This document shows positions 16,664 to 64,000 of a DNA stretch of 64,000 bases, piece after piece. The notes beneath the pieces were generated by a model that was not told where the DNA came from, searched no databases, and worked only from the letters and a program-made list of their open reading frames with translations. Origin of the DNA: Candidatus Gastranaerophilales bacterium (lineage in GTDB: Bacteria; Cyanobacteriota; Vampirovibrionia; Gastranaerophilales; Gastranaerophilaceae); NCBI GenBank assembly GCA_944323705.1, contig CALUTM010000003.1:1-64000 (forward strand), read 5' to 3'. The position numbers were made by a program, and so were the translations under genes. Within the stretch, counting starts at the first letter, position 1. Each line of letters opens with the position of its first letter.

Positions 16664-18931
16664 CTAACTGATTCTTTTTAGTATAATAAAGCTGTTTGGA
16701 GCGAGAGACAGTTTTTGGTTCAGATTAGTAATGTCTTTTCTGTCTTCATTGGTGTAACCTGCCCCGCCATATTCTTCCGCATCGCTGTTGAATATTTCCT
16801 CCCAGGTACTGTCTTGCGGGAAGCCAAAGTATTCATAGCTCTTATCAATAAACCCGTCACCAAAATGTTTTATAACAAGCAATTCTTCATCAGGACTTGT
16901 GAGCTTGTGGACATTTACATTATGGTTATAGTCATTATAAAATGCGGTGATTTCACCTTTTTGTAAAGCGGAATGATTTTTAAGCAAATTGCTTAAATCC
17001 TTATTGAATTTTATCATTTGTGCGGGCGTGTCTTTAAACATACCGTCATATTTAATTTTTCCAACAATGCAATCGGGACGTGTAATTTCTTCCAATGTAT
17101 CATACCCTTTTTCCGCCCACATTTTAGGAAGTTCATTGGGGTCATTTGCCCGCTTGTCTCTTGAGTCTGAAAATTCTCTAAAGAATCTGAAGAGTGATAA
17201 GTCTGCCTGGTCATCTCCCTGGAAATACATCTTAGGTCCGGGAGTTGTCATGGACAAACCGAACAAGAGTTTTTGTTTGGCTAATCCCGCTTTGAATACG
17301 TTAATTAGTTCGTCTTTTGAAATGAATCTTTTAAGTCCGCATTCTTTTTCTTCATACTTCATCAGGTCAGCCCTTGAAATCTTGTCAAAATCTTTAGATA
17401 CAATGAGTTCACAGAGTTTTTGGGACGCGTTTGCAGCCTTTTGTCCTCTTACTGAATTACGGTCTTTGTCATCATAATTACCGTCGTCGTCAACATAATT
17501 AGATAACATAAAATGCATTACCATATTTTTGGCTACAAATCTGGTGCCGTCCCAGTTTCCTATTTCATCGTGGCTGTATGCATATTTAACCCTGTGTCTT
17601 GTATCCTTTATATTTCTCTCGACGTTTCCAAGCAGGTTTGAACCCGGTTCAAGTACAGCTTGACTTGCCATATCCTTAAATTTTGAGTCCCACTCACTGT
17701 CATAGCCTATGCCTGCGATGCTTGGACCCCAACCTTTTTGTAAAAGGTCTATTTGGCTGTCGATAAATTCTATTTTTTCATTGTGTGTTGCGTTTACATT
17801 GTCGTGGTACTTTGTTATCTGTTCTCTGTTATCCATATTATCTTCAGCAATTAAAAATACGTCGGGGTTATGTTCATTAAGCTCAAGCGAAATCTGCTTT
17901 AATAGGTAATCGGATCCTGTAGCATGTGTTAAATCAAATCTGATACCGTCAACCTTATACTCATTTGCCCACCATAATGCCGCGTTTGCCATCCAGTCTC
18001 TTACGTATCTGTTATCTTTACCTTCGTAGTTGAATAAATCTCCATACCCCCCTTCAGCTTTAATGTATGGTCCCGTTTCCTTAAGGAAATTGCCGTCCGG
18101 TCCCATGTGATTGGGAACCATATCCATAATTACATTTAATCCTTTGCCGTGAGCGTAATCTATAAAATCTTTTAACTTGTCCGGACCGCCGAGGTTTGTA
18201 TTAACCGCAAATTTGTCAACGCCGTCATACCCCCATTGTTTTGAGAAAGTGTTTTCTACCGGCATGATTTCAATAGCATTTGCAATCCCTCTTTCTGCGA
18301 TAGTATCTACATGTGATTTTGCGGCATCAAAGGTTCCTTCTTCGGAAAGTGTGGGAATATTTATTTCTTCGATTACCAAATTCTCAAGTCCCCTCAACGG
18401 TTCATTCGGCTTTCTTACAATTCTTCTGGGGTCTTTACCTTCAAGCCAGTCAGTGTTTTGCCATTCGTAACCGTCTTGATTATAGACGGAACTCCAACCC
18501 AGTATATTCTCTTGTTTTTTTGCATACGGATCTTTGACAATATTAACATTCTCATCTTGGGTTAAAATGATATATCTGTAACTATCTTCTGGTTTTGCAT
18601 CAATATTTTCGGCGGTAAAAACTCCCTTACCCTGATTTTTCATCGGATATATTTCTGACTTTTCGTCAATGGAGGAAATTACGGCTCCTGCCCCTCCGGC
18701 AGCGAGTACGCTTACTAATCTTTCTTTTATCTTTCCCATATTGCCTGAAAGTTTGTTTGCAACTTCCACAAAGACCGCTTTTGCATCAGGGAAAGTAAAT
18801 AATTTAAAGTTTGTTTTACCCGTTTCTTTAACGTAATTGGCCCCCCAACTTATGTGCTCCTGCCAGGCTCTTTTAAATGAAGGGGTCTTTTTTGTCTGGT
18901 AAAAATTCGAATTAACACTCTGTACTTTCAT
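16664..18931 (-). CDS. GH13 alpha-glucan enzyme, TreZ/GlgB-like, with N-terminal FK tag
   Basis: 755 residues. After a 20-residue leader (MKVQSVNSNFYQTKKTPSFK) comes an N-terminal beta domain and a GH13 barrel. The four conserved regions are visible: DMVPNH (270-275), GIRFDLTHA (nucleophile Asp333), LIAEDN (acid Glu363) and YSHDEIGNW (His454-Asp455). WGYDGVDKFAV, GGPDKLKDF and IAEDN are closest to malto-oligosyltrehalose trehalohydrolase (TreZ). A branching enzyme is the alternative. No signal peptide, so action on intracellular glycogen is inferred. The leader resembles those of the genes at 43782, 48053, 56775 and 58211. Confidence 0.85.
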   Translation of the reverse strand: MKVQSVNSNFYQTKKTPSFKRAWQEHISWGANYVKETGKTNFKLFTFPDAKAVFVEVANKLSGNMGKIKERLVSVLAAGGAGAVISSIDEKSEIYPMKNQGKGVFTAENIDAKPEDSYRYIILTQDENVNIVKDPYAKKQENILGWSSVYNQDGYEWQNTDWLEGKDPRRIVRKPNEPLRGLENLVIEEINIPTLSEEGTFDAAKSHVDTIAERGIANAIEIMPVENTFSKQWGYDGVDKFAVNTNLGGPDKLKDFIDYAHGKGLNVIMDMVPNHMGPDGNFLKETGPYIKAEGGYGDLFNYEGKDNRYVRDWMANAALWWANEYKVDGIRFDLTHATGSDYLLKQISLELNEHNPDVFLIAEDNMDNREQITKYHDNVNATHNEKIEFIDSQIDLLQKGWGPSIAGIGYDSEWDSKFKDMASQAVLEPGSNLLGNVERNIKDTRHRVKYAYSHDEIGNWDGTRFVAKNMVMHFMLSNYVDDDGNYDDKDRNSVRGQKAANASQKLCELIVSKDFDKISRADLMKYEEKECGLKRFISKDELINVFKAGLAKQKLLFGLSMTTPGPKMYFQGDDQADLSLFRFFREFSDSRDKRANDPNELPKMWAEKGYDTLEEITRPDCIVGKIKYDGMFKDTPAQMIKFNKDLSNLLKNHSALQKGEITAFYNDYNHNVNVHKLTSPDEELLVIKHFGDGFIDKSYEYFGFPQDSTWEEIFNSDAEEYGGAGYTNEDRKDITNLNQKLSLAPNSFIILKRIS

Positions 18932-20002: not shown

Positions 20003-21823
20003 ATGACTGATTGGGCAACAAATCAATATTGGAATAACAGTTGGCAGAATTGGTATCAACCTTGGAACAATGTAGGAACATGGAATCAAGGGTGGATGTC
20101 GTATCCGACCTGGAATCAGCCTTGGAGCAGTTCTGTTTCCATGCCCTGGAGTAGTTCCGTCCCATCTTCAAGTACAAGTGATGAAAAGAAGGTCACTTCT
20201 CAAGAAAAAGAGCCTGTATTGAGTTTTTCCGAAAGGGTTGCACAGGTACGGTTTGAAAAGGATAAAGACAAAATTATAAAAGAAATTGATGCTGAAAAGA
20301 ATATTAAAGAATTTGAAGAACAAAAGCAGCAGATAGAAAAAAATAAAAAAGCTGACGGCTCAAGCTCTGTAACTGTATCAACAAAAAAACAAGGTTTTTG
20401 GGGCAAAGCCGGACGTTGGTTATCTAATGCGGGCAGTGCGTTGGCAAATATGGGTAAAAGCTTTGTCGGTATTGAAGAAGACGGCAGTTGGAATTGGAAA
20501 AAATGCCTGAAAAATGTAGGAATTGCGGCAGCCGTTGTCGGTGCTACATTTATTCCTGTTGTGGGACCTGTTATTAGTGCAGGACTTTTGGCGACAGGTG
20601 TTGTAAGCGGAGCTGTCGGAGTCGCAAAAGGTGTATCAAAACTGAATGATGCACGAACGGACGCTGAAGTTGATAAGGCTCAACAAGATATTTGCAGTGC
20701 TGCTTTTGTTGGTTTGGCATCAATATTTGGTCTGCGTGGTCTTGGTAAAGGTTTTAGAACTTCTGCAACTACTGCTTCCCAGGCAAGTTCTGCAGCTGCA
20801 AGGAGCGGAATCGGTAAAGTTGTTGAATCTGCATCTAACTTCGGAAGAGATATGACGGTTAACGCCTTTAAGGCAACCGCAAGTGCCGTTAAGGCGGATA
20901 AGGCAGCTATAGCGGGACAAGGTATTTCGGGCTTCTTTAAGGAATGGGGAACAAAAATGTCAGATTCTTGGAGAAGTTTCGGTGATTGGAAAGAACGATA
21001 CAAAAAGCAGCATAAAGAATTGGAAACTTCGCTGAACAATAAACTCAATGACATTACAAATAAATTAAACACCGAGACTAATGCGGCAAAAAGAGCTTTG
21101 CTTCAGGAAGAAAAATCGATGTTGGAATTAAATTTGGCTGAGTTACGCTCTCTTGGAAGCAGGATTAAAACAAAAGCTGATTATGAAAAATTATTAAAGG
21201 ATAATTCCGCAAAATTCAATAAAGAATGGAGCAGCAGCTATACTCAAAATTCAAGAGGCGGCTATGAAATCAACGGGCGAACAATTGCACCTGAGAGATA
21301 TAACCAATTCTATTCAAGTGTTAATCGTACGCAAAAGCTCTATGAGTCAAGGTTAAAAGACTTAATCAAAACAAAAGAGAATTTAATGCGGCAGTTGGCT
21401 AAGCATCCTGAAAAAAATCTTGCGGAATTAGACGCGTATGTTCCTACGAGAACTGTTTCAAAAAATTGGTTAAAACCGTCAACCTGGAGAAAGAATGAGT
21501 ATCAACTTGCAATAGGCGGGAAAAATCCCGGAAAATATAAAGAGTTATTAGGTGTAACCTTAACTTCACCTGCTGCAATTACTACAGTTTGGACTGACAG
21601 GGCATTTGATGAAACGCCGTTATATTCTACTCCGTTTATGTACGGTCAGGATTTTACACCTGAAGAAACGGAAATGCAGATTCAGGCATTGGAGCAGCAG
21701 ATTGAACAATACAAAACTGCAATATCCGCAATAGAAAATGCTAAAAACAAGGAAGAGTTAAATGCTATAATTGCGGTTTTGAACGGTGAGGGGGAACAGG
21801 GTGCCGAGCAGGAGAATGTATAA
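20003..21823 (+). CDS. Trp/Asn-rich N-terminus, coiled-coil protein of unknown function
   Basis: 606 residues. The first 50 residues are a low-complexity W/N/Q/S/P stretch with a Trp every three to six residues (NNSWQNWYQPWNNVG...). A charged helical segment follows, then a hydrophobic Gly/Ala/Val region at about 170-215 (AAAVVGATFIPVVGPVISAG) that may insert in a membrane. Residues 330-480 form a coiled coil, and the C-terminus is a second coiled coil. AAGGGA lies 8 nt before the ATG. No family is recognised. The 3' end overlaps the convergent U32 gene by 59 bp. Confidence 0.7.
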   Translation: MTDWATNQYWNNSWQNWYQPWNNVGTWNQGWMSYPTWNQPWSSSVSMPWSSSVPSSSTSDEKKVTSQEKEPVLSFSERVAQVRFEKDKDKIIKEIDAEKNIKEFEEQKQQIEKNKKADGSSSVTVSTKKQGFWGKAGRWLSNAGSALANMGKSFVGIEEDGSWNWKKCLKNVGIAAAVVGATFIPVVGPVISAGLLATGVVSGAVGVAKGVSKLNDARTDAEVDKAQQDICSAAFVGLASIFGLRGLGKGFRTSATTASQASSAAARSGIGKVVESASNFGRDMTVNAFKATASAVKADKAAIAGQGISGFFKEWGTKMSDSWRSFGDWKERYKKQHKELETSLNNKLNDITNKLNTETNAAKRALLQEEKSMLELNLAELRSLGSRIKTKADYEKLLKDNSAKFNKEWSSSYTQNSRGGYEINGRTIAPERYNQFYSSVNRTQKLYESRLKDLIKTKENLMRQLAKHPEKNLAELDAYVPTRTVSKNWLKPSTWRKNEYQLAIGGKNPGKYKELLGVTLTSPAAITTVWTDRAFDETPLYSTPFMYGQDFTPEETEMQIQALEQQIEQYKTAISAIENAKNKEELNAIIAVLNGEGEQGAEQENV

Positions 21824-36098: not shown

Positions 36099-36944
36099 AT
36101 GGCTCTTACAATTAATACAAATTTGTCGTCATTAATAGTTCAAAGTAACTTGAACTCGGCTACCACAATGTTGAGTCAGGCAATTGAACGCATGACAACG
36201 GGCTACAGAATTAACCATGCAAAAGACGATGCTGCAGGCTATTCAATTGCAGCTGATTGGAATACAAAACTAAGTTCTTTAGATATAGCTTCACAAAATA
36301 CATCTATGGGTATTGACTTGCTGACAACTGCTGAAGAGAATTATGCATTGATTACATCACACCTGCAACGTGTAAGAGATTTGACGGAACAGGCTGCAAA
36401 CGGTACGTACGGCTCAAGCTCTTTGAATGCAATAAATGCGGAAATTACGGCAAGATTGGAAGAAATCGACAGGGTTGCTTCTAACGCAGAGTTTAATGGT
36501 ATTGCTCTGATGTCGGCAGATGCTGTTGATATAACATTGCAGGTTGGAATATATGCCGATGCAAACAGCCAAATATTACTGGATGCGGGTTTATTTGGAG
36601 CTGCTACTTCGTCGGCACTTCTTGGTATGGAAATTGCTGATTTTGCAGCTGCGTGCACTACGGCTGATACCGCTGCGGCTCAGTTGACGGTAATTGATAG
36701 GGCTATTACAAATCTTTCCGACAGAACTACAGATATTGGTGCTGCACAAAACAGACTTGAATCTGCTGCAACTTCAATTGAAGTTCAGACAGAAAATTTA
36801 ACCTCATCACTGTCTACAATTCGGGATGCCGATATTGCGGAGGTTTCTTCGAATTATATACAGGCACAGATTTTACAGCAGGCGTCTGCAACATTGTTGG
36901 CGACTGCGAACCAAACGCCAAGTATAGCGTTAAACTTGATTTAA
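36099..36944 (+). CDS. fliC: Flagellin
   Basis: 281 residues. The N-terminal D0/D1 block (INTNLSSLIVQSNLNSA, RMTTGYRINHAKDDAAGYSIA) and the C-terminal D1/D0 block (IRDADIAEVSSNYIQAQILQQ) are typical. The centre is short, so the outer D2/D3 domains are essentially absent, giving a minimal filament subunit. It has no signal peptide, consistent with export by the flagellar type III system. AAAGG precedes the ATG by about 7 nt. A terminator follows at 36977. The Maf-like protein at 52013 could glycosylate it. Confidence 0.94.
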   Translation: MALTINTNLSSLIVQSNLNSATTMLSQAIERMTTGYRINHAKDDAAGYSIAADWNTKLSSLDIASQNTSMGIDLLTTAEENYALITSHLQRVRDLTEQAANGTYGSSSLNAINAEITARLEEIDRVASNAEFNGIALMSADAVDITLQVGIYADANSQILLDAGLFGAATSSALLGMEIADFAAACTTADTAAAQLTVIDRAITNLSDRTTDIGAAQNRLESAATSIEVQTENLTSSLSTIRDADIAEVSSNYIQAQILQQASATLLATANQTPSIALNLI

Positions 36945-43781: not shown

Positions 43782-45539
43782 TCAATCATTTACTTTCTGT
43801 TTGAAAACATGTCCTTTTCTGTCTTCTTCTATATTTGGCGTATCGATTTCAAAGACGTAAGCATCACAGGGTGCCAAATTTACTCTTAGTTCATTCGTAG
43901 CGGCTTGAAACTCACTCTTTTCGCCATATTCGGGAACCATATTTTTGAGTTCTTGAGTCTCTTTAAACCCCGGAATTTCGACAATCCCGGTTACGTTTCT
44001 GTTGGGGTTTTTGTTGGCAACCACAAGAATTGTACGTCCGTTATTATGTCTTGCGTATGCTATAATCTGGTCGTTTTTATCGTTTCTTTTGTCCAGTTCA
44101 ATAAAGCTGCTGTTTCTGTTTGCAAGAACGTCGAGATTTTCTTCTCTCATTTTAAGCGTTCCACGCATAACCCTTTCTATGTCAGGCGAATTCCCGCCGG
44201 GTTTTCTTGCAAGGTTAAACAGTGAGAGTTTATTTTTATGGTCATTCATCTCATTATTGGGTCTGTCGGTGTATGACTCAATATTGCTTTTACCTATATA
44301 TTTGTAGTTATAATAGTCGCCCGTTTGGAAACCGTCAACAAAGTACGGATTACACATCGGAATGGTTGACTGTAATATTGTTGTTAATTTGCAGAAATTT
44401 TCTCCGCCGTGAAGCATCGATGATACGTCATCGTGGGTCAGGAATGAGCCGATTACACTCTTTCCTGCTGGGAGTCTGTGTGATAAGTCCAAATTGAACT
44501 TGACATAATCGTTAAATTCGGAAGCCGTCCTCCAGTCGTGGAAGATGTGATATTGTCCATAGTATTCGTCAAAACCTGCTCTTAACAAATCTTCCGGCCT
44601 GTCATACGGCATATTTACCATTGGTGAAGCACATTCATACGTGTAACTCTCGGCAAGCCATCCGAATTCGGGGTCTTTTTCATGAGAGTATTTTATCAAT
44701 ATGTCCCAAAATTCCGGCGGTTTAGCTCTTGCTACGTCGGCTCTTATGCCGTCAATCCCCAAATCTATACAGGCATCAATATACTGTTTGTGCATTTCTA
44801 ACAATTTCGGATTCAAAGTTCTTTTGCTTTCATCTTCCCAAGGATTGAACATTCTTATATCTTCCCAACCCTGAGGGGTTTTATCTTCGCCGTTTCTTCC
44901 GAATGCCATTAGTTCCTCTTCTGCCTCAAACATGTCTACTGAAGCACAGCTCGGAAGGTCAAGCATAACCTTTATACCTCTTTTATGACATTCATCAATA
45001 AAAGCTTTAAATTGTTCGTCGGGACTTCTGGGGTCATCCTTCTCAATAATCATCGGGTCAATAGCCAGATGCCCGTCTTCTGTCACATACTTGGCGGGAG
45101 AATATATAGACCCTGCGGTTCCCATTGCGTTTTTCTTCCCTGTCGGGTGGATTGGCAGTATATGAATTGTATTTATTCCGCCTTTTTTTAGTTCGTCTAA
45201 TCTTGATATTGCACTCAGGAGCGTACCGTTTTTCTCGCCCGTTGTAAGCGTAACTATGTCATCTCCGTTCAAATCCTGTGCGGTGAACGTTCTGGGAACA
45301 ATCGCCATCATGACAACTTCGTTGTTTTGAATCATGGAACGCAGATTATTTTTATATGGCTGTTGAGCTTTTGAATTTAAATCAACTTTTTTTACTGCAG
45401 GAGCATTCATCATAGCAAGATTGGCGAGGTATTTATCCGATACTTCGCTGTTATATTCACTTCTGTGTTTCTTATGTTTTACGGAAGTCTGTTGTTCTGC
45501 TGCTCTGAAATTTACTGTTTGAATTCTACTTACTTGCAT
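43782..45539 (-). CDS. GH13-like protein with altered active site and N-terminal FR tag
   Basis: 585 residues from the ATG at 45539 (AGGTGAG fits this start better than the ATG 3 nt earlier). The leader MQVSRIQTVNFRAAEQ matches the tag family. A GH13 barrel follows: GIRADVARA carries the nucleophile Asp (about 268) and WLAESY the acid Glu (about 297). Region I is DLPSCAS without the usual Asn-His, and region IV is LTHDD. KPPEFW after region II recalls GlgE maltosyltransferases, but the match is distant. It is the last gene of a trio with 48053 and 45526, overlapping the latter by 14 bp. Confidence 0.78.
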   Translation of the reverse strand: MQVSRIQTVNFRAAEQQTSVKHKKHRSEYNSEVSDKYLANLAMMNAPAVKKVDLNSKAQQPYKNNLRSMIQNNEVVMMAIVPRTFTAQDLNGDDIVTLTTGEKNGTLLSAISRLDELKKGGINTIHILPIHPTGKKNAMGTAGSIYSPAKYVTEDGHLAIDPMIIEKDDPRSPDEQFKAFIDECHKRGIKVMLDLPSCASVDMFEAEEELMAFGRNGEDKTPQGWEDIRMFNPWEDESKRTLNPKLLEMHKQYIDACIDLGIDGIRADVARAKPPEFWDILIKYSHEKDPEFGWLAESYTYECASPMVNMPYDRPEDLLRAGFDEYYGQYHIFHDWRTASEFNDYVKFNLDLSHRLPAGKSVIGSFLTHDDVSSMLHGGENFCKLTTILQSTIPMCNPYFVDGFQTGDYYNYKYIGKSNIESYTDRPNNEMNDHKNKLSLFNLARKPGGNSPDIERVMRGTLKMREENLDVLANRNSSFIELDKRNDKNDQIIAYARHNNGRTILVVANKNPNRNVTGIVEIPGFKETQELKNMVPEYGEKSEFQAATNELRVNLAPCDAYVFEIDTPNIEEDRKGHVFKQKVND

Positions 45540-48051
45540 CATCGCTCACCTGCTTTTTCATATTATGCGGATTTCTAATTCGTCCGAACGTGAACAAAGG
45601 TATCAAAACTGTAGCCCCGAGAACGGTTCCGCCTATGGCAGAAGCTATTCTCAGCCATTTTTGGTTTCCGTATCTTCTTGCTGCCGCATTCTTCACCGTA
45701 TCAACAGAGGTCTGGGCTACAAGATTAAATTTTGCCATCCTTGTTCTTTCTGATTTTGTATAGTTCTTAAACTCTTCCCCGAGTTTGTGCTCAGGTTTTG
45801 TGAAGTCTATATCATTATTACCGATTATATCTCTGAAACGTTTTATATATGCCTGATATCTGTCAAGAAGAGCTCCGGTCTTCTCCTCTTTATATTTTTC
45901 AAGTGCATTTTTTGTCTCAGGAGCCATATTGTCGGACCAAGTGGTTTTCATTATATCCCTGTATAAATACGGGTTGTTCGGAGTATTCAGCTTTAATGTA
46001 TGTTCGGCAGAAGTAGCTGATAGAAGAACATCTTTTCCTTTTTGGATAAGATTTGGATCGTTGCCGCCTTTTGCAGTCTGTTTATAGAAATCAAAGAGGT
46101 GTATAATCCTTCTGAATGAGTTGTTTGCACCCTGATATCTTTCTACTATTCTTGAAATAACTTGATTTTTAGAAGAGCCTACTCCTTTGGCATTTGCTTT
46201 TACATACTCAATGCCTTTTAAATTACCATCGGGTTTAATTGTTCCGTCAAGCAAAGCATATAAGTCTTTGCGTGTATCCAATGCTTGGGAGACTTTTTTA
46301 TCAGGGGCTAAATTTTGTATCTCTTCCGTAACATCAGCTTTAACCAACCTGTCAATCGTATTTTGGAATTTACCTATTTTATTAAGACGCTTTGCAGTGT
46401 TGTCATAGTTATTTTCTACTGCATTAATAATGTCTTTTAAGAAAGTGCGGTCTCCATTTCCGTTGAGTTTTACTTCCGTTTCGGACATAACTTTTGCAAG
46501 CTTATCAATGGCTTTCTGATATTTTGCATCATCTTTTACAAGCTCTGATAACTTTTTATCCACAAGCTCTTTTGTTAACTTCTCGGAATCTTTAATTTCT
46601 TTAAGGTCTTTGTATTTAATACCAAGAACATCAAGAAGTGTATTTTCAAATTTTGCATACGAACGTGCAAGGACCGTTTCGTTAGTATATTCAATCTTGA
46701 AGCTCTTACACTTATCTATGGCTTTATAGTTTTCTTTAAATTCTCCGAGTACTTTGGCAAAATCAACCGTTGCTTTCAGATTCTCATCATTTATGTACCT
46801 GCCGCCGTTGAGTTTAATTTTTTGTGAAATTTTTTCTACAAGTCCGTTTTGATAAGCTTCTAAGAACGCCTTATTTGAACCTGACTCATTTGCGATTTTT
46901 CCTGAGTACAATTTCTTTAACTTATCTCTTATTGTACCCAAATCATCACTGTTAAGGATTTCCGTTAATTCTTCTTTTGTCGGAACGAAGACCTTTTCAA
47001 GAAGATTTTTATTTCTGTTGGGTATACCGTCTTTGATTGATAACAGAATATCGTCTACTGTCTGCTTATTGGCTTCTGATTTTAATTCCGGCTTGAACAA
47101 AGCTTTTAAGTCCTCTTTTATCCCTTCAGAAGCATTTGCATCCATCTCTTTGGTTAAAAGTTCTACAAGATTATCAAATTCGGCTTTGGGAAGTTCTTTT
47201 CCTTTATAGTCGGCAAGAAGCTTTTCAACCTGTTTGCTGAGCTTGTTGGGCTTAATTTCCGATACATTTAAATCCATTGCCTTGGTCTTATCAAGAGCAT
47301 GTATAATTTTGGAATTGTAATTCATATCTCTTACTTTTTCGACCGCCGGTGCGATTAATTTCTCTAAGCCGCAGCAGATTAATGCAGTCATAACAGGGGT
47401 TGCAAATCCCGCGGTCAGCATCCACCAGGTATTGCATTGTGTCGCAATTTTTCTCATTTGTTCTTTGGTAATGTCATCACGATTTTTGACATCTCTGGGA
47501 ATTCCAAGTTTATCTGCAATTACATTGAAATCCTGACTCGGATAATCGCCTCTGTACATGTCAAACGGTATATAGTTACTGTCTTGGAAAACTGATTTTT
47601 TACGACCCTGATCATCAATGTATTCAAGTCCGGGATCAAAGCCAAAGCGTGCTCTTGCAGGAGCCTGAATTGCTATTTTGGGGAACAAGGACATTGAAGC
47701 CAGAAAAGCTCCGAGTCCTACGTATTCCATAATTCTGCCCATTGGATTTGTAGTCCTTGCTGCAAGCATTGTTGCAATACCGATACCGCCAAATTTGAGC
47801 CCTACATCATTCAGTCTGCCGGATTGATGGTCATTCGCATTTCCTTTGAAACCGTCTTTTACAGCCTTCATGTCATACATAAAATCTTTGAAAAAGAATT
47901 TCGGCATTGAAAATAATCTGTCATGGATTAAATGACCTTGCGGCGGGAGCGGTTTTACGTTATTCGTGGTTTTTATCAAACCTTTTGCTTCTTTATAAGG
48001 TCTGTGAGATTTAGCATTATCAACATTTGTTTGTATAGGATGTACTGTCAT
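45526..48051 (-). CDS. Large helical membrane-anchored protein of unknown function
   Basis: 841 residues. Two hydrophobic segments lie at about 85-120 (GIGIATMLAARTTNP...) and about 205-225 (MLTAGFATPVMTALICCG), then some 550 residues of charged helical or coiled-coil sequence, then a C-terminal membrane helix (SAIGGTVLGATVLIPLFTFG) with a basic tail. A KDGFKGNAND motif before the first segment parallels KGMRGDVNSD in the neighbour at 48053; the IADKLGI motif parallels VAKKLGM there. The two are probably distant paralogues. It starts 1 nt after its neighbour's stop. No family is recognised. Confidence 0.72.
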   Translation of the reverse strand: MTVHPIQTNVDNAKSHRPYKEAKGLIKTTNNVKPLPPQGHLIHDRLFSMPKFFFKDFMYDMKAVKDGFKGNANDHQSGRLNDVGLKFGGIGIATMLAARTTNPMGRIMEYVGLGAFLASMSLFPKIAIQAPARARFGFDPGLEYIDDQGRKKSVFQDSNYIPFDMYRGDYPSQDFNVIADKLGIPRDVKNRDDITKEQMRKIATQCNTWWMLTAGFATPVMTALICCGLEKLIAPAVEKVRDMNYNSKIIHALDKTKAMDLNVSEIKPNKLSKQVEKLLADYKGKELPKAEFDNLVELLTKEMDANASEGIKEDLKALFKPELKSEANKQTVDDILLSIKDGIPNRNKNLLEKVFVPTKEELTEILNSDDLGTIRDKLKKLYSGKIANESGSNKAFLEAYQNGLVEKISQKIKLNGGRYINDENLKATVDFAKVLGEFKENYKAIDKCKSFKIEYTNETVLARSYAKFENTLLDVLGIKYKDLKEIKDSEKLTKELVDKKLSELVKDDAKYQKAIDKLAKVMSETEVKLNGNGDRTFLKDIINAVENNYDNTAKRLNKIGKFQNTIDRLVKADVTEEIQNLAPDKKVSQALDTRKDLYALLDGTIKPDGNLKGIEYVKANAKGVGSSKNQVISRIVERYQGANNSFRRIIHLFDFYKQTAKGGNDPNLIQKGKDVLLSATSAEHTLKLNTPNNPYLYRDIMKTTWSDNMAPETKNALEKYKEEKTGALLDRYQAYIKRFRDIIGNNDIDFTKPEHKLGEEFKNYTKSERTRMAKFNLVAQTSVDTVKNAAARRYGNQKWLRIASAIGGTVLGATVLIPLFTFGRIRNPHNMKKQVSDDASK

Positions 48052-48052
48052 A

Positions 48053-49126
48053 CTAAATCACCGTACTTTCTTTTGTCTTATCGATATTATCTTTATTTGC
48101 TGTTTTGCCCATCTTTCTTGCCCTGTATATTACATTTGCAGTACTTCCGACAGTTAAAGCAAGTGTTGCAAGAATCCAGCCTTTGCCGGCATGTTTCATG
48201 AAACCTGATGTTCCTGCCTCACCTGTCCACAAAGTCTTACAAGCTTTTACGAATGAAGACCCGAAGCTTTTTGATATATTTACAAAGTTTTCTCCCGCAT
48301 TCTTCATACGACTGCCGATTTTAGTCAGGAACCCTTCTCCCGGTTTCGGTACGTGACGTTTTCTTTTGGAAATTGAGTTAAAGAAACCGTTCCAAGAGTC
48401 TTGTACCGCAAGCCCGACTCCGAGACCTGCCCAGGCGTATGACGATAAACTCTTGGCGGTTTTTGTCATGGAAACGATACTCTGAATAATCGGTGTTGTT
48501 TCCGTTGCCGCATCATTTAAGTTTTCGCCCATGCCGAGTTTTTTTGCGACATTATCATAGTAAGAAGGACCAATGTCTTCTTGTATCAAGTCTTTTCTGA
48601 AAAATTCCCTGCTGTCATATACCTTTCTCTGTTGTATTTGCGGCATAGGATTTGCAAGTTCATCGCGTTCTTTCGGAAGCGGTGTGTAGACATGCTGTAC
48701 GGGCATTTCAATATCTACACCTGTACCCCAGGCAACGGGTCTGGTAACCAGGTCGTTGGAAAGGGTCTTAAATAACCCGTACATAACAACACCCAATGCC
48801 ATTTTCTTGCCGTTTATGCCTGCAAGAACCTGCGATTTCGGGGCTAAGTCCTTGAGGAGGTTAAACATAACCATAAACATAGCACTACCTGCCAGATAAG
48901 GAATTATACCCATTGATAAAAATTCATAAAAATCTGAATTTACATCGCCTCGCATGCCTTTAATCGGGTATTCCAAAAATGCATTTGTTGTTTTATGGAA
49001 CTTTTGGTGAATTCTGGTGCTCAATGTATTGGGTAAAATCTTAGAATCCGGTTTCGGCTTCTGTACTTCTTGCTGTTGAGCTTTGAACCCTAAATTATTA
49101 TCTGTTGATTTCACTGGTCTTATCAT
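48053..49126 (-). CDS. Membrane protein with N-terminal FKA tag
   Basis: 357 residues. The leader MIRPVKSTDNNLGFKAQQQ fits the tag pattern. Hydrophobic segments lie near residues 70-95 and 105-125, with a last helix near 315-335 (WILATLALTVGSTANVIY). A long polar loop with PVQHVYTPLPKE lies between. It is first gene of the trio with the 841-residue protein and the GH13-like protein. The upstream region has both the TTTTAGGGA box and the ATTGTAA box. Confidence 0.72.
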   Translation of the reverse strand: MIRPVKSTDNNLGFKAQQQEVQKPKPDSKILPNTLSTRIHQKFHKTTNAFLEYPIKGMRGDVNSDFYEFLSMGIIPYLAGSAMFMVMFNLLKDLAPKSQVLAGINGKKMALGVVMYGLFKTLSNDLVTRPVAWGTGVDIEMPVQHVYTPLPKERDELANPMPQIQQRKVYDSREFFRKDLIQEDIGPSYYDNVAKKLGMGENLNDAATETTPIIQSIVSMTKTAKSLSSYAWAGLGVGLAVQDSWNGFFNSISKRKRHVPKPGEGFLTKIGSRMKNAGENFVNISKSFGSSFVKACKTLWTGEAGTSGFMKHAGKGWILATLALTVGSTANVIYRARKMGKTANKDNIDKTKESTVI

Positions 49127-55876: not shown

Positions 55877-56791
55877 ATGTTTAAGCTTGTTTGCGGTGCG
55901 GGAAATGAAGATTGTGAAAGCGTAAAAAGGTTAATTTATGTTTACGCAAAAGCAGGATGTAAATATTTTGACATCTCGGCTAATAAAGAAATTTTGGAGG
56001 CTGCAAAAGAGGCTGTTTCTTTGGCAGAGCTTGATGAATATCATTTTTGCGTGAGTGTGGGGATAAAAGGTGATCCGCACATTACCAAAGCAAAAATAAG
56101 AGAGAGCGTATGTATAAAATGCGGTAATTGTCTCCGCCATTGCCCGAATGATGCTATTTTATCCTCTATAATCGTTGATGAAAAGAGGTGTATCGGATGC
56201 GGTACGTGTGCCAAAAAGTGCCCGACAGGTGCTGCAACTATGTATGAAAAGGATGTCAACGTAAAAGATATACTTCCTTATATGGTAGAAAACGGAGTCG
56301 AGATTTTGGAATTACACATTATGGGGCATGATAGAAAGGATTTGGAGTATAAATGGAATGTTATTAACGAGTGCAATCCCAAATACGCTTCAATCTGTAT
56401 AGACAGGGAAAATTTCGGCAATAAGGAAGTCCTTGCAAGAATACGGAGTATGATTGCACACAGAAAACCTTATACAACAATAATTCAGGCGGACGGAATT
56501 CCGATGAGCGGTTCCGATGACAGTTACAAAACAACATTACAGGCTGTAGCGATGGCAGAGATTATACAGAATGCAAATTTACCTGTGCATATAGTTTTGT
56601 CCGGCGGAACAAATTCCAAAACCGCAGAACTTGCCAAACTTTGCGGTATTAATTATATGGGAATTGCAGTAGGCTCATGGGCGAGAAAAATCGTAAAACC
56701 GTATATTAATTCTTCAAACTTCTGGACAAATCAGGAAGGGCTTAAATTGGCTGTTGCAAAGGCTTCGGAGCTGGTTAAAGCTTCTGCTTAA
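55877..56791 (+). CDS. LdpA-like protein with two 4Fe-4S clusters
   Basis: 304 residues. The start LVCGAGNEDCESVKRLIYVY and KYFDISANKEIL match my memory of cyanobacterial LdpA, the light-dependent-period protein that feeds redox state to the Kai clock. Ferredoxin-type ligands are Cys79/82/85/89 and Cys105/108/111/115. The C-terminal domain is barrel-like, with a phosphate-loop-like VLSGGTNSKTAELAKLCG. The role outside photosynthesis is unknown; a redox-sensing or radical/flavin-linked function is possible. It follows the FtsL-like gene by 3 nt and overlaps the convergent AAA+ gene by 17 bp. Confidence 0.82.
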   Translation: MFKLVCGAGNEDCESVKRLIYVYAKAGCKYFDISANKEILEAAKEAVSLAELDEYHFCVSVGIKGDPHITKAKIRESVCIKCGNCLRHCPNDAILSSIIVDEKRCIGCGTCAKKCPTGAATMYEKDVNVKDILPYMVENGVEILELHIMGHDRKDLEYKWNVINECNPKYASICIDRENFGNKEVLARIRSMIAHRKPYTTIIQADGIPMSGSDDSYKTTLQAVAMAEIIQNANLPVHIVLSGGTNSKTAELAKLCGINYMGIAVGSWARKIVKPYINSSNFWTNQEGLKLAVAKASELVKASA

Positions 56792-58193
56792 CAATTCTTT
56801 CGACAGCCTTTAGTAAATCATCTTTGTTAATCATAATTTCTTTTAAGTCATTATAACAGAATGTTTTGGCATCCATTTTTTTATTCATACCCATACGCTC
56901 AAGGGCATTAAAGTAGCTATCCGTAACCGTTTCTGCGACATCAGAGCCGTTAAATTTATTATCAAACATTTTTTTGATAATTTCGGATATTGGTGTGGAT
57001 TCTTCTATCGGCTGATTTTTGGAATGAATTTTAAAAATCTGTTTTATGCCCTCAAGGTTTGGCATTGGTATTTCAAGATGAAGTCCGAATCTTCCGGTTG
57101 CAAGTAAGGCTTTATCAATCAAAGACTTCATATTTGTTGCGGCTACTATAAAAGCGGGAACCTTAGTTTTTTCCAGGTCACTCATGCATCCGAGCAGCTG
57201 ATTAACCATTGCATCGTCAAATCTGGCATTAGAAGAGCCGTCTCTCTTTTTTGCAATTGAGTCTAATTCATCTATAAAAGTTATTGATGGTGCGTCTGCA
57301 ATCGCTTGTTTAAAAAGCTTCCTGATTCTACTCTCTGAGCCCCCGACTTCTCCCGTTTTAAGCTCATTGGCATTACATTCAATGTATTTCGCATTGCATT
57401 CATTTGCAAGAGCCTTTCCTAAAAGAGTTTTGCCACATCTTGGCGGTCCATAAAGCAGTATTCCCTTGTTTAATCGAATGTTACTATATACCTGAGGATA
57501 ATTTATCGGCCGGACTACATATTGCTTAAGTTTTTCAATAACACCATCCAGGCCGCCGATATCGCAGAATCTAAATTCCTGATTTGTTGTAATTTTAGGT
57601 CTCGATTCTGACATAGCTGCTATGGTACGTTTGTTGAACTCATGAATTTGGGTTGGATTTTCTACCGAGGATTTTACTTCAAGGTATTTTGCTGCACGCT
57701 CCGGGTTATAACAGGGTTTTTTGAATATAAATTTATCTTTTTCTCCTTTGTATGAATAAATCGATTCTCCCGTTTCTATTATGCTTCCTTCTTCTAATTT
57801 TGTTATTTCACCCGGTTTAAACATGTGTTTTTGCGGATTAAATTCCCCGTTTCTGACAACCAGAAGGTCAAAAGTGTTACCGATATTTAGAACATAGTAA
57901 CCGTCATTTTTTTTGAATATTGCAAAATTGGCTTTAAGTTCGTTTTGGTTTTTCAGGTCGGACGGTGTGACTTTGAGTGTATATTTTTTGAGTATCGGGA
58001 CGTCTATTTTGTCAGAGTATAGTTCCAGCATCATATCCGAACTCTCTGCATTACTTGTTACCGTCAAAATGGAGTTATTGTCCAGTGCTTCCAGTCCAAA
58101 GCGAAATTTGTCGGATATGTTCGGCGTGTTTTGGAATAGTCCTCGAAAAGTTGTTCTATTATATATAGAACGATTTATTGCTGCGACTCTCAT
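56775..58193 (-). CDS. AAA+ ATPase with FHA-like domain and N-terminal FRG tag
   Basis: 472 residues in three parts. Residues 1-20 are the tag (MRVAAINRSIYNRTTFRG). About 40-155 resemble an FHA fold (GYYVLNIGNTFDLLVVRNG, LEEGSIIETG). From about 205 a Cdc48/FtsH-type AAA module follows: Walker A GPPRCGKT (249-256; the second half of the usual GPPGTGKT is altered), Walker B ITFIDE (304-309), sensor AATN (351-354), and Arg finger GRFG (367-370). It starts 17 bp after the giant GH13 gene in the same direction, so the two are probably co-transcribed. A remodelling or segregase role on tagged proteins is inference. Confidence 0.82.
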   Translation of the reverse strand: MRVAAINRSIYNRTTFRGLFQNTPNISDKFRFGLEALDNNSILTVTSNAESSDMMLELYSDKIDVPILKKYTLKVTPSDLKNQNELKANFAIFKKNDGYYVLNIGNTFDLLVVRNGEFNPQKHMFKPGEITKLEEGSIIETGESIYSYKGEKDKFIFKKPCYNPERAAKYLEVKSSVENPTQIHEFNKRTIAAMSESRPKITTNQEFRFCDIGGLDGVIEKLKQYVVRPINYPQVYSNIRLNKGILLYGPPRCGKTLLGKALANECNAKYIECNANELKTGEVGGSESRIRKLFKQAIADAPSITFIDELDSIAKKRDGSSNARFDDAMVNQLLGCMSDLEKTKVPAFIVAATNMKSLIDKALLATGRFGLHLEIPMPNLEGIKQIFKIHSKNQPIEESTPISEIIKKMFDNKFNGSDVAETVTDSYFNALERMGMNKKMDAKTFCYNDLKEIMINKDDLLKAVERIVKQKL

Positions 58194-58210: not shown

Positions 58211-61200
58211 TTATTTAGAAATTATGGATAATTTCTTTCCTGTCTCAACAGGAACTTCGTTGTGTTTGTAGGGATTAGAAACGATATTGTATTGAGAACT
58301 TGGATTCTTGCCCCTGAAAGCCAGTTTTTTGAGAATCATAACACCATTCTTTGCAGTAACTCCGTCCATTACGATTTTACCGCCGTCTTTGCGGAAGATT
58401 CCGAATTTATTGCCAATCTGTTTGACTACATATTCCGCTTTATCTTTTGCATTGGCATTGGCAAAAATTGTACCTGCGGGGATTGCAATTCCTGCTCCTA
58501 TTAAGATACAGTCTAATTCGCTTTTGGGCTGAATTGGTACATACCTGTTGTTAGGATTAATTGATTCAATATTATTCTCTGCAAAGAACTTTTTACGATC
58601 GGCTTCGGTTTTTATGCCGTAATCGTTTTCTAAATCTTTAAAGTAGTCATGCCTACTGTCATGATTGATATTTCCCGCATTAAACACCGTAACCGTCATA
58701 TCGCCGTTAGCACTCTGCATCATGCAGGCAATTTTTGCCAGTTCTTTTGTAAGTTGTCTGCGTTCTTTTTCAAGAGCATCTTTATTCGCAGGGTTTGTTT
58801 GCAGTTCTTTGTTGATTTCCGCGATTCTTTTTTGAACGTCATCACGATTTCGTCCGTCAACCATAACATCCATCATATAAGGAGTTCCATCATTAAGGGA
58901 ATGAAGAGTCGGATTACTTCTGTCTGCCAAGGCTCCGTTTATGGCTCCAATAATTGATTTTCTGTAATTTCCGATGATGGAATCTTCATCAAGGTCCGAC
59001 CAGGGCAATGCATTTCTGTTTTGAAGATATATGTTTTTAGCTTTTTCTTCATAACCTGTTGCCCCTAATTCGTCTCCGGCGTATGTCGTAGGAATACCCG
59101 GAAGTCCTTTAAAAAATTCGGTAATCATGGCTGCTTTAACAACGGCGGGTTCTGTCGCTGCTTTGAACGCTGAATCAATAACCGCTTCTTTATTTGGAAT
59201 GGTTTTTCCTGTCTTGTATTCAGCCTGTTTCAAAGCCATTTTTATTGCAACTTTTATGTCTCTTGCAGCATAACCGTTCTTCCTTCTGCTCATACTCGGG
59301 TCTTCAAATCTCGGGAGCTCAGTTGTTTTCTTTCTTACGGTTTCTCTGTTATACTTTTCGACAAAATCCGTTAATGCCGATTTAATTGCGGCTTCGGCAT
59401 TCGGCATTTTTTGAGATTCTTTATAAGCATCTCTGAGAAGTCGGGCTAACTGTATTGATAACAAACTGTAGCTTTTATGGTAACCGCTTGTACCGAGTAA
59501 ATCGCTTGCAGCCGCTTCATTGAAATGTTTTACGTCGTCACTTATGCCTTTATCCCAGTCTAAGTCGCCGAGAACACGGTAATTTGATAAATCAAGAGTG
59601 TTTGCCTTTTTAACCACGTCTTGAATAAGTTGTTTCCGTTCCGTATCGGACAATTTTAAGCCGTGGTTTTCAGCCATTTTCAGTATCGTCTCAAATGCCT
59701 TTTCAAGTGATGTTAACTCTTCTATAGCCAATGTCTGATAGTTAATGTTCTTACCGACTCCCAGATAGTTTCCGTTTGTCAGGTCTAAGATTGCATCATT
59801 GATATTTTTAAGGTCATCTTCCGACAACATTGATTTGATATCCTGATTGAATACATCAAGCAGCAGTCTGCTCATTGCGGCGGCTCTGGTGCTTGCTGTT
59901 CTCATGTAGTCATCATTATCTATGTTTAATCTTATGTTAATAGGAATGTCTTCAATGGATTTAGCTCCCGTTAACACTTGTAAAGTCTTAAGTCTGTTAT
60001 TATGTACATTCCCGCTATTATGGAATAATTCCATATCAAGAGCTAAACCGTGAATCATACGAGGCTTGTCGTGGCAGTCCATAAACGTCCAGAGGTTTCT
60101 CAAGTAATCCGCACTTCTTGTTTGCAAGAGGAGTTCCAATCTCGGTTTGAAGCTGTCATGCGTCATACTTGCACCGTTTCCGGTATCAAAAGCTTGAGAG
60201 AATACCTGTAAAAGATTAGTGAAGAAGTAAGAATACCCTGCTTCTGATGTGACCCCGGTCTCATTGAAAAACTTCGCGAAAGCATCGGGTTCACCGTTGA
60301 ACTTCTGACCAATATTAGTTTCACCATTATAAGGGCAGGAGTCAGTACCGTATGTATCACGCATCAAATCGGGAATATCCGTAATTTCAGCTACAATGTA
60401 TGAATTCGGGTCTTCGGATTTTACTGTTTGTACAAACTTTTTCCAGAATGCCATTACATTGTCAAATCCGTCATCAAAAGCATCATCTTCATTTCTGATA
60501 GCATCCATGTCCATCATATCTTTTGCAGCATCAAGCCTCCAATTCATTCCTAAGCTTGAGCGGTCTGTTATTGCTTCTGCAAGTCTGAAGCTTGAAGTGT
60601 CCGTATTTGCAATTCTTTTGGCTATTGAATCGGCAACGTAAGAAATATCCGTATCGGAAAGTTTTTTCAAACCTTTTCTGATTTTCTTTTCAAGTTGTTC
60701 TGCTTCATCTTCAGGTGTGTTTGCATTGATATTCAACGCTTTAAGCGTAGTGCCTTCTTTCAAGGTTTCATAATCATACGTAATTTCACCGCTTTGAAGT
60801 GTTTTGACCTTAAAGCTGTCGCCTCCGAGAGATTTTAACCAGGCGTATTTTGCGATATCCTGTCCGACCAGTTCCATTACATATTCGCCGTATTCGGTGT
60901 AATCACCGTTTGCATCCAAAAGCTTTTCATCAGACTTATCATTCACTTTAGCAATGATTGCATCTGCAAAATCTTTCAGTTCGTTATTAAACAGGCTGTT
61001 TACCTTTTTGTAAGTTTTTGTATAAGGTTCAACAAGGTGCGGGTTATTTTGTTTCATTAAATCAAATCTTGAAACCCCGATTGTTTCGTCTGTTGTTGCC
61101 CTGTTAGAGAAGTACGAAGTCGAAAGTACACCGACCGTATTTTCACCGAGCTCCAGTGCATCAAGAGGCATTCTCATCAAGGCTCTAACCGTGATATCGT

Positions 61201-63022
61201 CTTTGTTGTCAATTCCTTTCGGTGCAAGCATATAAGTTCCGTTCAGAATGTTGTTCAACACTTCATTGCTGATGCTTGCTTCTTGCGGAAGTTTACCGTC
61301 TTTTATTAAGTTCTCTATTGCTTGAGTTGTTTTTGCTTTACCAATCGTTTGTGCAATATACATAGTTTGAATATCTTTGACTTTGCCCGTCCAGTATTTG
61401 CCTGACTGGATTGCCATGTCTTGTGCTTCTCTTGCACCTCTTTCAATCATCTGTTTTTCATAATCACGTTGTGACAAATTCGGGATTGCTTGAAGAATCT
61501 TTTCATCATAGCCTGATATGTGATAATTCATTTTGGCAAGGTCTGTGTTGGCATCCCAGGTAACAAATCCGCCTTCTGTCTTCTTGTCAAACTTGAAGTT
61601 TGAAAATTCACAAGCCATTATTGTACCGTCAGGTGTATCCAATTTTATATTCTTACCGAATTTTTTATTCAGTTCATTGATTACCTTAATCCTGTTAGCA
61701 TATTCCTTTGGATTAATTTGCATTACGAAGTTTATAACCGTATCATCATGGTCAATAATGTCAAGTACATTGCCTTTTGTAAGCTTTTCATAATTGATAA
61801 TCGCTTTATCTAATTTATTGAGCTGTTCATCGCTTGCTTGTGAAGCATCGTAGATTTGAACGAGCGTTTCTTTTTCACTGTTATAATCGGGATTTTCGAC
61901 GGCTTTATAAGTTCCGTCAGATTGAAGCTCATAATTATAAGGAGCATTTATAATTCTGTGTCTCAGGTTTTCTTTATTTTGAGGAACAACTCCGAGTCCA
62001 AGGGTTGAATCTTTAAGAGCACTCATTTTGAACCAGTAATATGATTGCGGTTTCTGGTGTGCCCATCTTAACGCGTATTGGAAGTGAATACCCTCTAAAC
62101 CTTCTGAGGTAAATGTTCCGTCATATACATATTTGATACCGTTTTTGTATAAATCTCTGAAAAATGAAGCAAAGTTTTCCGTATTGCCGATATTTGGGGA
62201 TACTTGCATGTTATTTTTGTTCCAGTAGCCCAATGACCATCCTTTTGCACCGTTTGCAATCGGGTTTGTGAATAATACCTTTGTACCGTTTTGTTTAAGG
62301 TAAGGAATCATACGCTGTAAACCTGCAAGATTCCCGCCATAGATGTTTGAGAAATTCTTGACAACGCCTTCCATTTTCTTTTGGTATTCTTTATCGTAAT
62401 AGATTTCGCCCGTATTCGGGTCATCAAACCCCTTGTATTTTGCTCCGGGCATGAAAGAATCAGGAGCTATAAGGTAGCCCGCTCCCTGCGTCATCGGAGT
62501 TGTACCTTTTCGGGTTACAAGAGTATGAGTGTAATTGGAAACAGAATCTGCGTAATCAATAGTCTCATAGCTAAACAATTTCTCTGATGTATTATTGCCC
62601 TCCGCATCTTTTTTAAATACATCCTGATATCTTCTGCCGTCACTGTTTCTGAAAACATATTCTCCGTTTTCCTGCGGTTTTATTTTTACCCCGGTATCTG
62701 CTGTTTCTATAACTTCGCCCGTTTGTTTATTTTTTCTTACGACTTTGTATGCAAAAGCATCCTCTTTGCCGAGGTTTGTGACTGTTTGCAGATTAACTTC
62801 AACCCCTTCGGGCTTTAGTGCAAATTTATAAATCGGGCTGTCAGAAAGCTTGTAGTTGTAATTAGCCGTGGGGGTTGCTTTATATATGTGTATTTCACAA
62901 TCCTCATTTTTATAGTCGTAAGGATAATTGAACTTTAATACGGTCTCCCCAACGTCATTTTTTACGTGCTGATAGCCTTTAAACCCTAAATTTGTTACAC
63001 CGTTAATCTTATTTACAAACAC
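58211..63022 (-). CDS. Giant GH13-type alpha-glucan protein with FKG tag
   Basis: 1603 residues starting at GTG, with AAGGAG 9 nt upstream. The leader MFVNKINGVTNLGFKGY carries the tag. N-terminal beta domains lead into a GH13 barrel interrupted by long helical insertions. NWRLDAAKD (about 825-833) supplies the nucleophile Asp, IVAEITD (about 877) the acid Glu, FMDCHDKPR (about 980) the region IV His-Asp, and GIPTTYAGDELG (about 1312) the late-barrel motif. No signal peptide, so intracellular. It is two to three times the usual GH13 length. Specificity is unknown. Probably co-transcribed with the AAA+ gene. Confidence 0.82.
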   Translation of the reverse strand: MFVNKINGVTNLGFKGYQHVKNDVGETVLKFNYPYDYKNEDCEIHIYKATPTANYNYKLSDSPIYKFALKPEGVEVNLQTVTNLGKEDAFAYKVVRKNKQTGEVIETADTGVKIKPQENGEYVFRNSDGRRYQDVFKKDAEGNNTSEKLFSYETIDYADSVSNYTHTLVTRKGTTPMTQGAGYLIAPDSFMPGAKYKGFDDPNTGEIYYDKEYQKKMEGVVKNFSNIYGGNLAGLQRMIPYLKQNGTKVLFTNPIANGAKGWSLGYWNKNNMQVSPNIGNTENFASFFRDLYKNGIKYVYDGTFTSEGLEGIHFQYALRWAHQKPQSYYWFKMSALKDSTLGLGVVPQNKENLRHRIINAPYNYELQSDGTYKAVENPDYNSEKETLVQIYDASQASDEQLNKLDKAIINYEKLTKGNVLDIIDHDDTVINFVMQINPKEYANRIKVINELNKKFGKNIKLDTPDGTIMACEFSNFKFDKKTEGGFVTWDANTDLAKMNYHISGYDEKILQAIPNLSQRDYEKQMIERGAREAQDMAIQSGKYWTGKVKDIQTMYIAQTIGKAKTTQAIENLIKDGKLPQEASISNEVLNNILNGTYMLAPKGIDNKDDITVRALMRMPLDALELGENTVGVLSTSYFSNRATTDETIGVSRFDLMKQNNPHLVEPYTKTYKKVNSLFNNELKDFADAIIAKVNDKSDEKLLDANGDYTEYGEYVMELVGQDIAKYAWLKSLGGDSFKVKTLQSGEITYDYETLKEGTTLKALNINANTPEDEAEQLEKKIRKGLKKLSDTDISYVADSIAKRIANTDTSSFRLAEAITDRSSLGMNWRLDAAKDMMDMDAIRNEDDAFDDGFDNVMAFWKKFVQTVKSEDPNSYIVAEITDIPDLMRDTYGTDSCPYNGETNIGQKFNGEPDAFAKFFNETGVTSEAGYSYFFTNLLQVFSQAFDTGNGASMTHDSFKPRLELLLQTRSADYLRNLWTFMDCHDKPRMIHGLALDMELFHNSGNVHNNRLKTLQVLTGAKSIEDIPINIRLNIDNDDYMRTASTRAAAMSRLLLDVFNQDIKSMLSEDDLKNINDAILDLTNGNYLGVGKNINYQTLAIEELTSLEKAFETILKMAENHGLKLSDTERKQLIQDVVKKANTLDLSNYRVLGDLDWDKGISDDVKHFNEAAASDLLGTSGYHKSYSLLSIQLARLLRDAYKESQKMPNAEAAIKSALTDFVEKYNRETVRKKTTELPRFEDPSMSRRKNGYAARDIKVAIKMALKQAEYKTGKTIPNKEAVIDSAFKAATEPAVVKAAMITEFFKGLPGIPTTYAGDELGATGYEEKAKNIYLQNRNALPWSDLDEDSIIGNYRKSIIGAINGALADRSNPTLHSLNDGTPYMMDVMVDGRNRDDVQKRIAEINKELQTNPANKDALEKERRQLTKELAKIACMMQSANGDMTVTVFNAGNINHDSRHDYFKDLENDYGIKTEADRKKFFAENNIESINPNNRYVPIQPKSELDCILIGAGIAIPAGTIFANANAKDKAEYVVKQIGNKFGIFRKDGGKIVMDGVTAKNGVMILKKLAFRGKNPSSQYNIVSNPYKHNEVPVETGKKLSIISK

Positions 63023-63168: not shown

Positions 63169-63190
63169 AAATAAAATTTCAATTTTATTT
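63169..63190 (-). terminator. AT-rich terminator of the glgA-fusion gene
   Basis: A 10-bp stem AAATAAAATT / AATTTTATTT with a TC loop, then a T-run on the minus strand. It overlaps the stop codon. Confidence 0.5.
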
Positions 63191-64000
63191 TACATAGTGT
63201 CTGCCTGAATAGACCACTTCTTTAAGGTTTTTGAGGTCCTTAAATTTTTGCAGAATGTTTTTTGTATGTTCGGCAAATGAATATATAAGATTAGGATTTA
63301 CGGAAACAAGTTCGCCGAGAGAGATTTTTGTAATGTCATGCCCGTATTTTTTGCCGAGTATTGAAAGTTTTACCATTATATTTTTAATTTTTTCTTTATC
63401 TCCCCATATAACATCATAGAAATCTTTTTCTCTTTCCGTCCATATTTTTTGCATAATGTTGTCGAGGTTTGCAGAAGTCTTGTAAGCAAGATAAAAGCAG
63501 GCAAGTATGGATTTGTTATTTTTGCCCGGAATTTCGTTTATGAAACTTTTTTCTTCTTGATTTTCGATTTCCCTGAGAAGCTTGAGCGTACTTTCTTCAT
63601 TGGGAGTATCTCCTAATTTAATATTTATATATTTTATTCCCGATTTTTGTGCGGCTTGCTTAATTTGCGGGTCCTCTTCATCTATCTGTATAATCCTGCT
63701 GAAGCCTTTGTGTTTTAAAAATTCAATATCTTCCCGTATTTTCTTCGGACTGCCCGTAGAAATTGCACCTGTACTGAAGTTTGAGTCCAGATAATACAAA
63801 TCTTTTATGTTGCTGTAATTTTTAGGGTTAAATACGGTTTCCATATATTTTTTTGCGGGCAAATCCCAGGTTCTTTTGTATCTTAGACAATTTAAAACCA
63901 TTTTATCCCATTTTTCGGGTTGATTTTTATAAACGTCCAGAGCTCTTTTTATTGTATAACAATAAGCTTCATACGGATTATCCTCCAAAAACAAGGATTT
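63185..64000 (-). CDS. Glycogen synthase C-terminus fused to a phosphatase-like domain (partial)
   Basis: The 5' part lies beyond the window; the frame is open to base 64000. The first 60 residues visible (FLEDNPYEAYCYTIKRALDV, then TWDLPAKKYMETVF) match the extreme C-terminus of GlgA-type glycogen synthases. About 210 further residues follow that GlgA does not have. They resemble a dual-specificity phosphatase: IREDIEFLKHKGFSRIIQID, then PNEESTLKLLREIEN, then a loop NEIPGKNNKSILACFYLAY where the HCxxGxxR signature should be. The catalytic Cys and Arg are missing, so it would be a pseudophosphatase. Confidence 0.72.
   Translation of the reverse strand, partial: KSLFLEDNPYEAYCYTIKRALDVYKNQPEKWDKMVLNCLRYKRTWDLPAKKYMETVFNPKNYSNIKDLYYLDSNFSTGAISTGSPKKIREDIEFLKHKGFSRIIQIDEEDPQIKQAAQKSGIKYINIKLGDTPNEESTLKLLREIENQEEKSFINEIPGKNNKSILACFYLAYKTSANLDNIMQKIWTEREKDFYDVIWGDKEKIKNIMVKLSILGKKYGHDITKISLGELVSVNPNLIYSFAEHTKNILQKFKDLKNLKEVVYSGRHYVK

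Follow-up and report, generated by a model that had tools for sequence, protein, structure and literature searches.

The sequence at the end of the window, i.e., the whole 64,000-base stretch analyzed here, raises the question of whether a gut bacterium of the Candidatus Gastranaerophilales, an order of non-photosynthetic relatives of cyanobacteria, has joined a glycogen synthase (GlgA) to a phosphatase-like domain and, if so, what such a protein would do. Glucan phosphatases and their noncatalytic relatives (laforin, SEX4 and LSF1) are known from eukaryotes, and no direct match to a GlgA-phosphatase fusion was found in open-access papers. The contig is 78,046 bases long, with the window as its bases 1-64000, and belongs to a genome of 1.93 Mb (99% complete). 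On the minus strand of the window, a frame that encodes residues 599-869 and the stop codon (63185..64000) is open to the window edge; the preliminary description took it for a glycogen synthase fused to a laforin-like pseudophosphatase domain.

One reading frame for both parts

Extension along the contig confirmed that the frame continues beyond base 64000: a single 869-aa open reading frame spans contig positions 63185-65794 on the minus strand, and no stop or frameshift separates the two parts. GlgA/GT5-like sequence occupies residues ~39-655 and is followed by a dual-specificity phosphatase (DSP) fold of ~210 residues. Of the GlgA part, no more than 45 residues fall in the window (residues 599-643, 63866..64000, minus strand), where they are followed by a TVFNP linker, the DSP-like domain and a helical C-terminal tail (residues 644-869, 63185..63865, minus strand); the evidence for this region comes from a pairwise match to an intact DSP, AlphaFold and Foldseek. 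The GlgA-like C-terminal pattern noticed at the start of the frame proved to be part of a homology that extends over residues 1-~655 in Pfam and TIGR02095 comparisons. Glyco_transf_5 matches residues 39-214 (E=5.6e-20, above the Pfam cutoff), Glyco_trans_1_4 matches residues 466-587 (E=2.8e-15), and the E. coli GlgA (2qzs) aligns to residues 460-656. The glgA profile TIGR02095 matches residues 327-652 (E=4.6e-57), with a score of 193.8 bits that is below the family cutoff of 328.45.

An artificial joining of two genes at the window end was ruled out by the full frame on the contig and by the presence of the fusion in five other genomes. All the named source records are metagenome assemblies, which would be the ground for suspecting an assembly or frame artefact; nevertheless, six genomes share the identical junction; they belong to two genera, and several stem from separate projects. 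The fusion is therefore not an assembly error, and we consider this explanation practically negligible.

Orthologous fusions were identified in four genomes of the same genus (G003, G019, G214 and G357, with 63-74% identity in the C-terminal part) and in one genome of another genus (G251, 35%). We searched 241 genomes from the order and 383 from the family; six family genomes, the window genome included, carry a fusion. When the genomes of 84,980 species were scanned with a pattern, possibly without the records near the window genome, six loci were recovered, all of this fusion type. They lie in five genomes that match those named above; the records bear the title Candidatus Gastranaerophilales or uncultured bacterium, and one of the former is from red deer. 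The GlgA-DSP fusion is therefore rare. A profile search across 289 genomes of the class recovered many standalone DSPs and, among the matches listed, no other fusion-sized frame with a DSP match, while phyla beyond the class were covered by the pattern scan only. The viral contigs searched contained no relatives of the fusion. Several very long frames of 1948-4398 aa, from other families within the class, also contained DSP-domain matches (L099 and others), and G088 encodes a fusion between a DSP domain and DUF6829 (L098:2895-4736, E=2e-69).

The C-terminal domain and its relation to laforin and SEX4

Residues 644-869 (226 aa) matched no Pfam family directly, and the C-terminus alone gave nothing significant against Pfam, NCBIfam or the PDB sequences, the sole PDB match being a DSP with E=0.4. 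The DSP homology was reached via the sequences of relatives. Genome G251 encodes a second, paralogous fusion (G251:C2) with the intact loop HCRAGVDRTG, whose DSP domain matches the Pfam families PTP-NADK (E=1.4e-15) and DSPc (E=1.4e-9), and standalone relatives with the intact loops HCRAGRDRTG and HCHMGHDRTG are encoded in G037 and G214. These intact-loop relatives match Pfam DSP-PTPase families (PTP-NADK, E=1e-10 to 1e-16). In 164 aligned columns, the window domain shares 26% identity with the intact domain of G251:C2 (single-pair BLASTP, E=2e-13), which was also found in the genome search (E=5e-8), and it matches a standalone intact DSP with E=5.5e-8.

Based on the alignment with the intact relatives L038 and L037 and on the AlphaFold model, we localized the degenerate signature loop, N753-E754-IPGKN-N760-K-S, at 63509..63538 on the minus strand. 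As the relative reads H-C-RAGVD-R-T-G at this site, Cys and Arg are both absent, and the DSP-type layout with a signature loop devoid of these residues, as initially described for the last ~210 residues, is borne out. The orthologs carry the loops NESTGKNNKS, NETGGKNNKS and NENRESDNKS; thus, NE-x5-NKS is kept in every window-type ortholog read, in two genera and down to 35% identity. The Asp of the relative's PMDGG motif (general acid) aligns to a gap in the window domain, and a shifted Asp in the sequence GDTP may be a candidate general acid.

The AlphaFold model of the C-terminal domain, computed from a seven-sequence alignment, has a mean pLDDT of 75 and a pTM of 0.70, and places the loop between a strand (107-110) and a helix (117-130), in a PTP-like arrangement. 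Its best Foldseek match is the archaeal SsoPTP (2i6i, E=7.6e-6, probability 1.00), and the 29 matches at E<=0.001 all have a PTP/DSP fold. The model thus agrees with the expected PTP/DSP fold rather than with one unrelated to phosphatases; because its alignment included an intact relative, this evidence is not independent of the homology. Since NEIPGKNNKS replaces HCRAGVDRTG, the domain is, as judged from its alignment and model, a pseudophosphatase of the STYX-like type, with the predicted fold, a substituted loop and conservation across species. The animal precedents STYX and MK-STYX likewise have the DSP fold and a catalytic loop with substitutions that are conserved across species (PMC8907265); however, these eukaryotic proteins retain the Arg (HGX5R and FSX5R), which the fusion has also lost. 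PTP-NADK (PF22741) and DSPc (PF00782) share with the domain the fold and, via the intact fusion paralog and the standalone DSPs, homology, whereas they have HC-x5-RTG in place of NE-x5-NKS.

A functionless, decaying domain, retained through its attachment to the synthase part, would be a different explanation of the C-terminal part, in keeping with the faster evolution of the DSP part. Its identity is 74% to G003 and 35% to G251:C8, compared with 81% and 67% for the GlgA part. Between G214 and G019, the dN/dS ratio is ~0.03 in the GlgA part and 0.13 in the DSP part, the latter value coming from few changes, while synonymous sites are saturated in more distant ortholog pairs. The fusion is under purifying selection, which is weaker on the DSP part. 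Nevertheless, the domain has its full length and an open frame in all six genomes, its substituted NE..NKS loop is conserved, the C-terminal sequence VYSGRHY[VI]K is almost invariant across the genus and the PTP/DSP fold is predicted, so that we regard a mere relic as quite unlikely.

The description of the domain as laforin-like was not supported as a statement of family membership. No carbohydrate-binding module (CBM20/CBM48) was detected when the entire protein was compared with Pfam at E<=1. The intact relative (loop CRAGVDRTG) has its best Pfam families in PTP-NADK, Tc-R-P and other general DSP-PTPase families, and in a PDB sequence search with it general DSPs lead, while LSF2 reaches only E=0.1. 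From the GlgA context, the DSP fold and the fifth Foldseek match, the plant phosphatase 4kyr (E=1.6e-4), which we take to be the glucan phosphatase LSF2, one could envisage a bacterial counterpart of laforin and SEX4 that would dephosphorylate glycogen by another chemistry. However, the loop has neither Cys nor Arg, the CBM is absent, LSF2 is one match among many, and other DSPs match equally well or better; we therefore hold this explanation to be highly improbable. Laforin and SEX4 themselves share with the fusion the DSP fold and the glycogen or starch context, but they have an active CX5R motif and a CBM, and their sequences are not especially close. On these comparisons, "laforin-like" should be replaced by "pseudo-DSP".

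The glycogen-synthase-like half and a proposed role

To compare its residues, the synthase half was aligned with two canonical GlgA proteins, one from its own genome and one from a relative. In the glycogen synthases of E. coli and A. tumefaciens, ADP-glucose is contacted at positions H161, R300, K305, E377 and G380 (PMC7137382; PMC6210743). In the fusion, the equivalents of the donor-site residues K15, R300 and K305 are kept (in KTGG and TRYDPQQKG), while H161 is replaced by N, E377 by A553 and G380 by E556, so that EPxG now reads APxE. Additionally, the DWH triplet reads EWT, with loss of its His. E377 is essential for the activity of the E. coli glycogen synthase, and to our knowledge a Glu at this position is near-universal in GT5; no direct match for E377 kinetics was found in the papers searched. 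The canonical GlgA is encoded separately in the same genome (G000:C35) with all these donor-site residues intact, and two additional GlgA-like proteins of 615 and 918 aa are also encoded there.

The full-length AlphaFold model is weak (mean pLDDT 64, pTM 0.42), and for this reason neither the domain arrangement nor the active-site geometry can be read from it. Its Foldseek matches are GlgA and starch synthases by E-value (4e-18), with a TM of only ~0.2 by query length, so that the homology of the synthase half is drawn from the profiles. Of the earlier name "glycogen synthase", the GlgA homology therefore stands, whereas the plain label is probably wrong, given the altered H161, E377 and G380 and the separate canonical GlgA. 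The sub-cutoff score, insertions and the C-terminal DSP domain also set the fusion apart from GlgA (GT5; E. coli 2qzs, TIGR02095), and judging from the alignment this half should rather be named a degenerate or altered glycogen-synthase paralog.

In the contig, a gene for an NAD-dependent epimerase lies upstream and overlaps the start of the fusion frame, itself preceded by a small open reading frame and a FliI/EscN-type ATPase gene. Downstream, the minus strand encodes a GH13 alpha-amylase-family protein of 1603 aa (58211..63022; Pfam Alpha-amylase, E=6.9e-12) and then an AAA+ ATPase (56775..58193; Pfam AAA, E=9.3e-33), which is also a neighbor in loci L045 and L042. An epimerase-sized frame, the fusion and a GH13-sized frame occur together in G003, G019, G214 and G357 (loci L044, L045, L042 and L086), while the G251 locus has kept the epimerase and not the GH13 gene.

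We propose, with about even confidence, that the protein unites a GlgA paralog without catalytic activity and a pseudophosphatase, and acts as a glucan- or partner-binding scaffold or regulator in alpha-glucan metabolism, a reading based on sequence, models and analogy. Both glycogen synthesis and phosphate removal by the fusion would have been lost. The synthase half, with its equivalents of the donor-phosphate-contacting residues K15, R300 and K305, may sense alpha-glucan or ADP-glucose, the pseudo-DSP would be a module on which a phosphorylated partner or a partner protein docks, and the fusion could thereby work alongside the co-encoded epimerase and alpha-amylase-family protein. As no CBM was detected, the suggestion of glucan binding comes from homology. 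Plant starch metabolism offers noncatalytic precedents in BAM9 and in LSF1, a nonenzymatic SEX4 homolog of the DSP type that has been proposed as a beta-amylase scaffold (PMC8774843). LSF1 differs in having a CBM and no synthase part, and a specific sequence kinship to the fusion is not shown. By this analogy, the fusion hints at noncatalytic regulators in bacterial glycogen metabolism.

The ancestor would probably have been a GlgA-like protein with an active DSP, a form that persists in one relative. The window fusion and the G251:C2 fusion have the linker TVF(D)NP in common, and their pairwise match (E=2e-13), which includes this linker, indicates that they probably derive from one event. 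A tree of the GlgA part (14 rows, midpoint root) agrees with a single fusion origin (support 94/95). The active-looking and pseudo-DSP forms among close relatives may represent a small natural series from an enzyme pair to a regulator.

The same tree bears on the possibility of a synthase half still active as a transferase, with an altered chemistry or acceptor, in which the Glu shifted by three positions replaces E377 and the pseudo-DSP helps to bind a phosphorylated acceptor. APxE is invariant in all the fusions and in a separate GlgA-like family of ~875-963 aa, and both APxE groups are sister to proteins that keep EPCG; the change has thus occurred at least twice, if E is ancestral. As a conserved pattern that arose twice by the tree, APxE could count against lost catalysis and speak for a changed one instead, and the lineage of the window retains K15, R300 and K305. 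On the other hand, the fusions have lost H161 and the His of the DWH triplet, the replaced Glu is otherwise near-universal, as noted above, and the models are too weak for placing the new Glu. We consider this alternative, the main one, doubtful, though deserving of some weight. The broader idea that the two EPxG to APxE exchanges in the Gastranaerophilales founded GT5 subtypes with a new chemistry or acceptor, the former phosphatase domain recognizing the acceptor or a phosphorylated partner, is speculative, and we think it rather unlikely.

Additional observations in the window and related genomes

The ~875-963-aa family mentioned above (L091:3269-6004, which is G000:C8, and L093, L094, L095 and L096) has SRFAPCELTDLE where the EPCG motif would stand. 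All three aligned members retain the H161, R300 and K305 equivalents, and the members read to the end have a hydrophobic stretch near the C-terminus. Another GlgA-like family, of ~596-673 aa (L090:1768-3612, which is G000:C1, and relatives), occurs in many genomes of the genus; its one aligned member has lost nearly all the donor-site residues (no KxGG, R300, K305 or E377).

Two more alpha-amylase-family proteins are encoded at 16664-18931 and 43782-45542, which gives three in the 64 kb. In G214, the standalone intact DSP gene (L043:7659-8375) is convergent to and abuts the canonical glgA (L043:8376-9815). In G037, the standalone intact DSP follows a weak protein-kinase-like gene (L046:24-728 and 771-2381; Pkinase E=3e-5, sub-cutoff), and the two, which both bear a variant of the N-terminal motif described below, are a possible kinase-phosphatase pair. 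Near the intact-DSP fusion of G251, a 1220-aa protein (L041:3237-6899) has a glycosyltransferase-like C-terminal part, while its N-terminal part has no Pfam match.

Many proteins begin with a short Asn/Ser/Ile-rich N-terminus that ends in a [ST]F[KR]G-like motif, such as MFVNKINGVTNLGFKGYQ, NRTTFRGLF and NTTFKGIYDP. It was located at 58211-63022, 56775-58193, 43782-45542 and 48053-49126 in the window, and at L002:5765-6823, L041:6903-7376 and L091:3269-6004. Of 184 open reading frames (orthologs included), 33 have F[KR][GA] within their first 60 residues, compared with 38 of 963 internal 60-residue stretches. All four genes of the fusion cluster have the motif or a variant of it, and the canonical GlgA is without it. 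The motif is possibly a sorting or export tag.

Elsewhere in the window, a 606-aa protein (20003-21823) has an N-terminus rich in Trp, Asn and Gln (MTDWATNQYWNNSWQNWYQPWNN...). A flagellin gene is located at 36099-36944 (Flagellin_N, E=3e-31), which indicates that the organism is probably flagellated.
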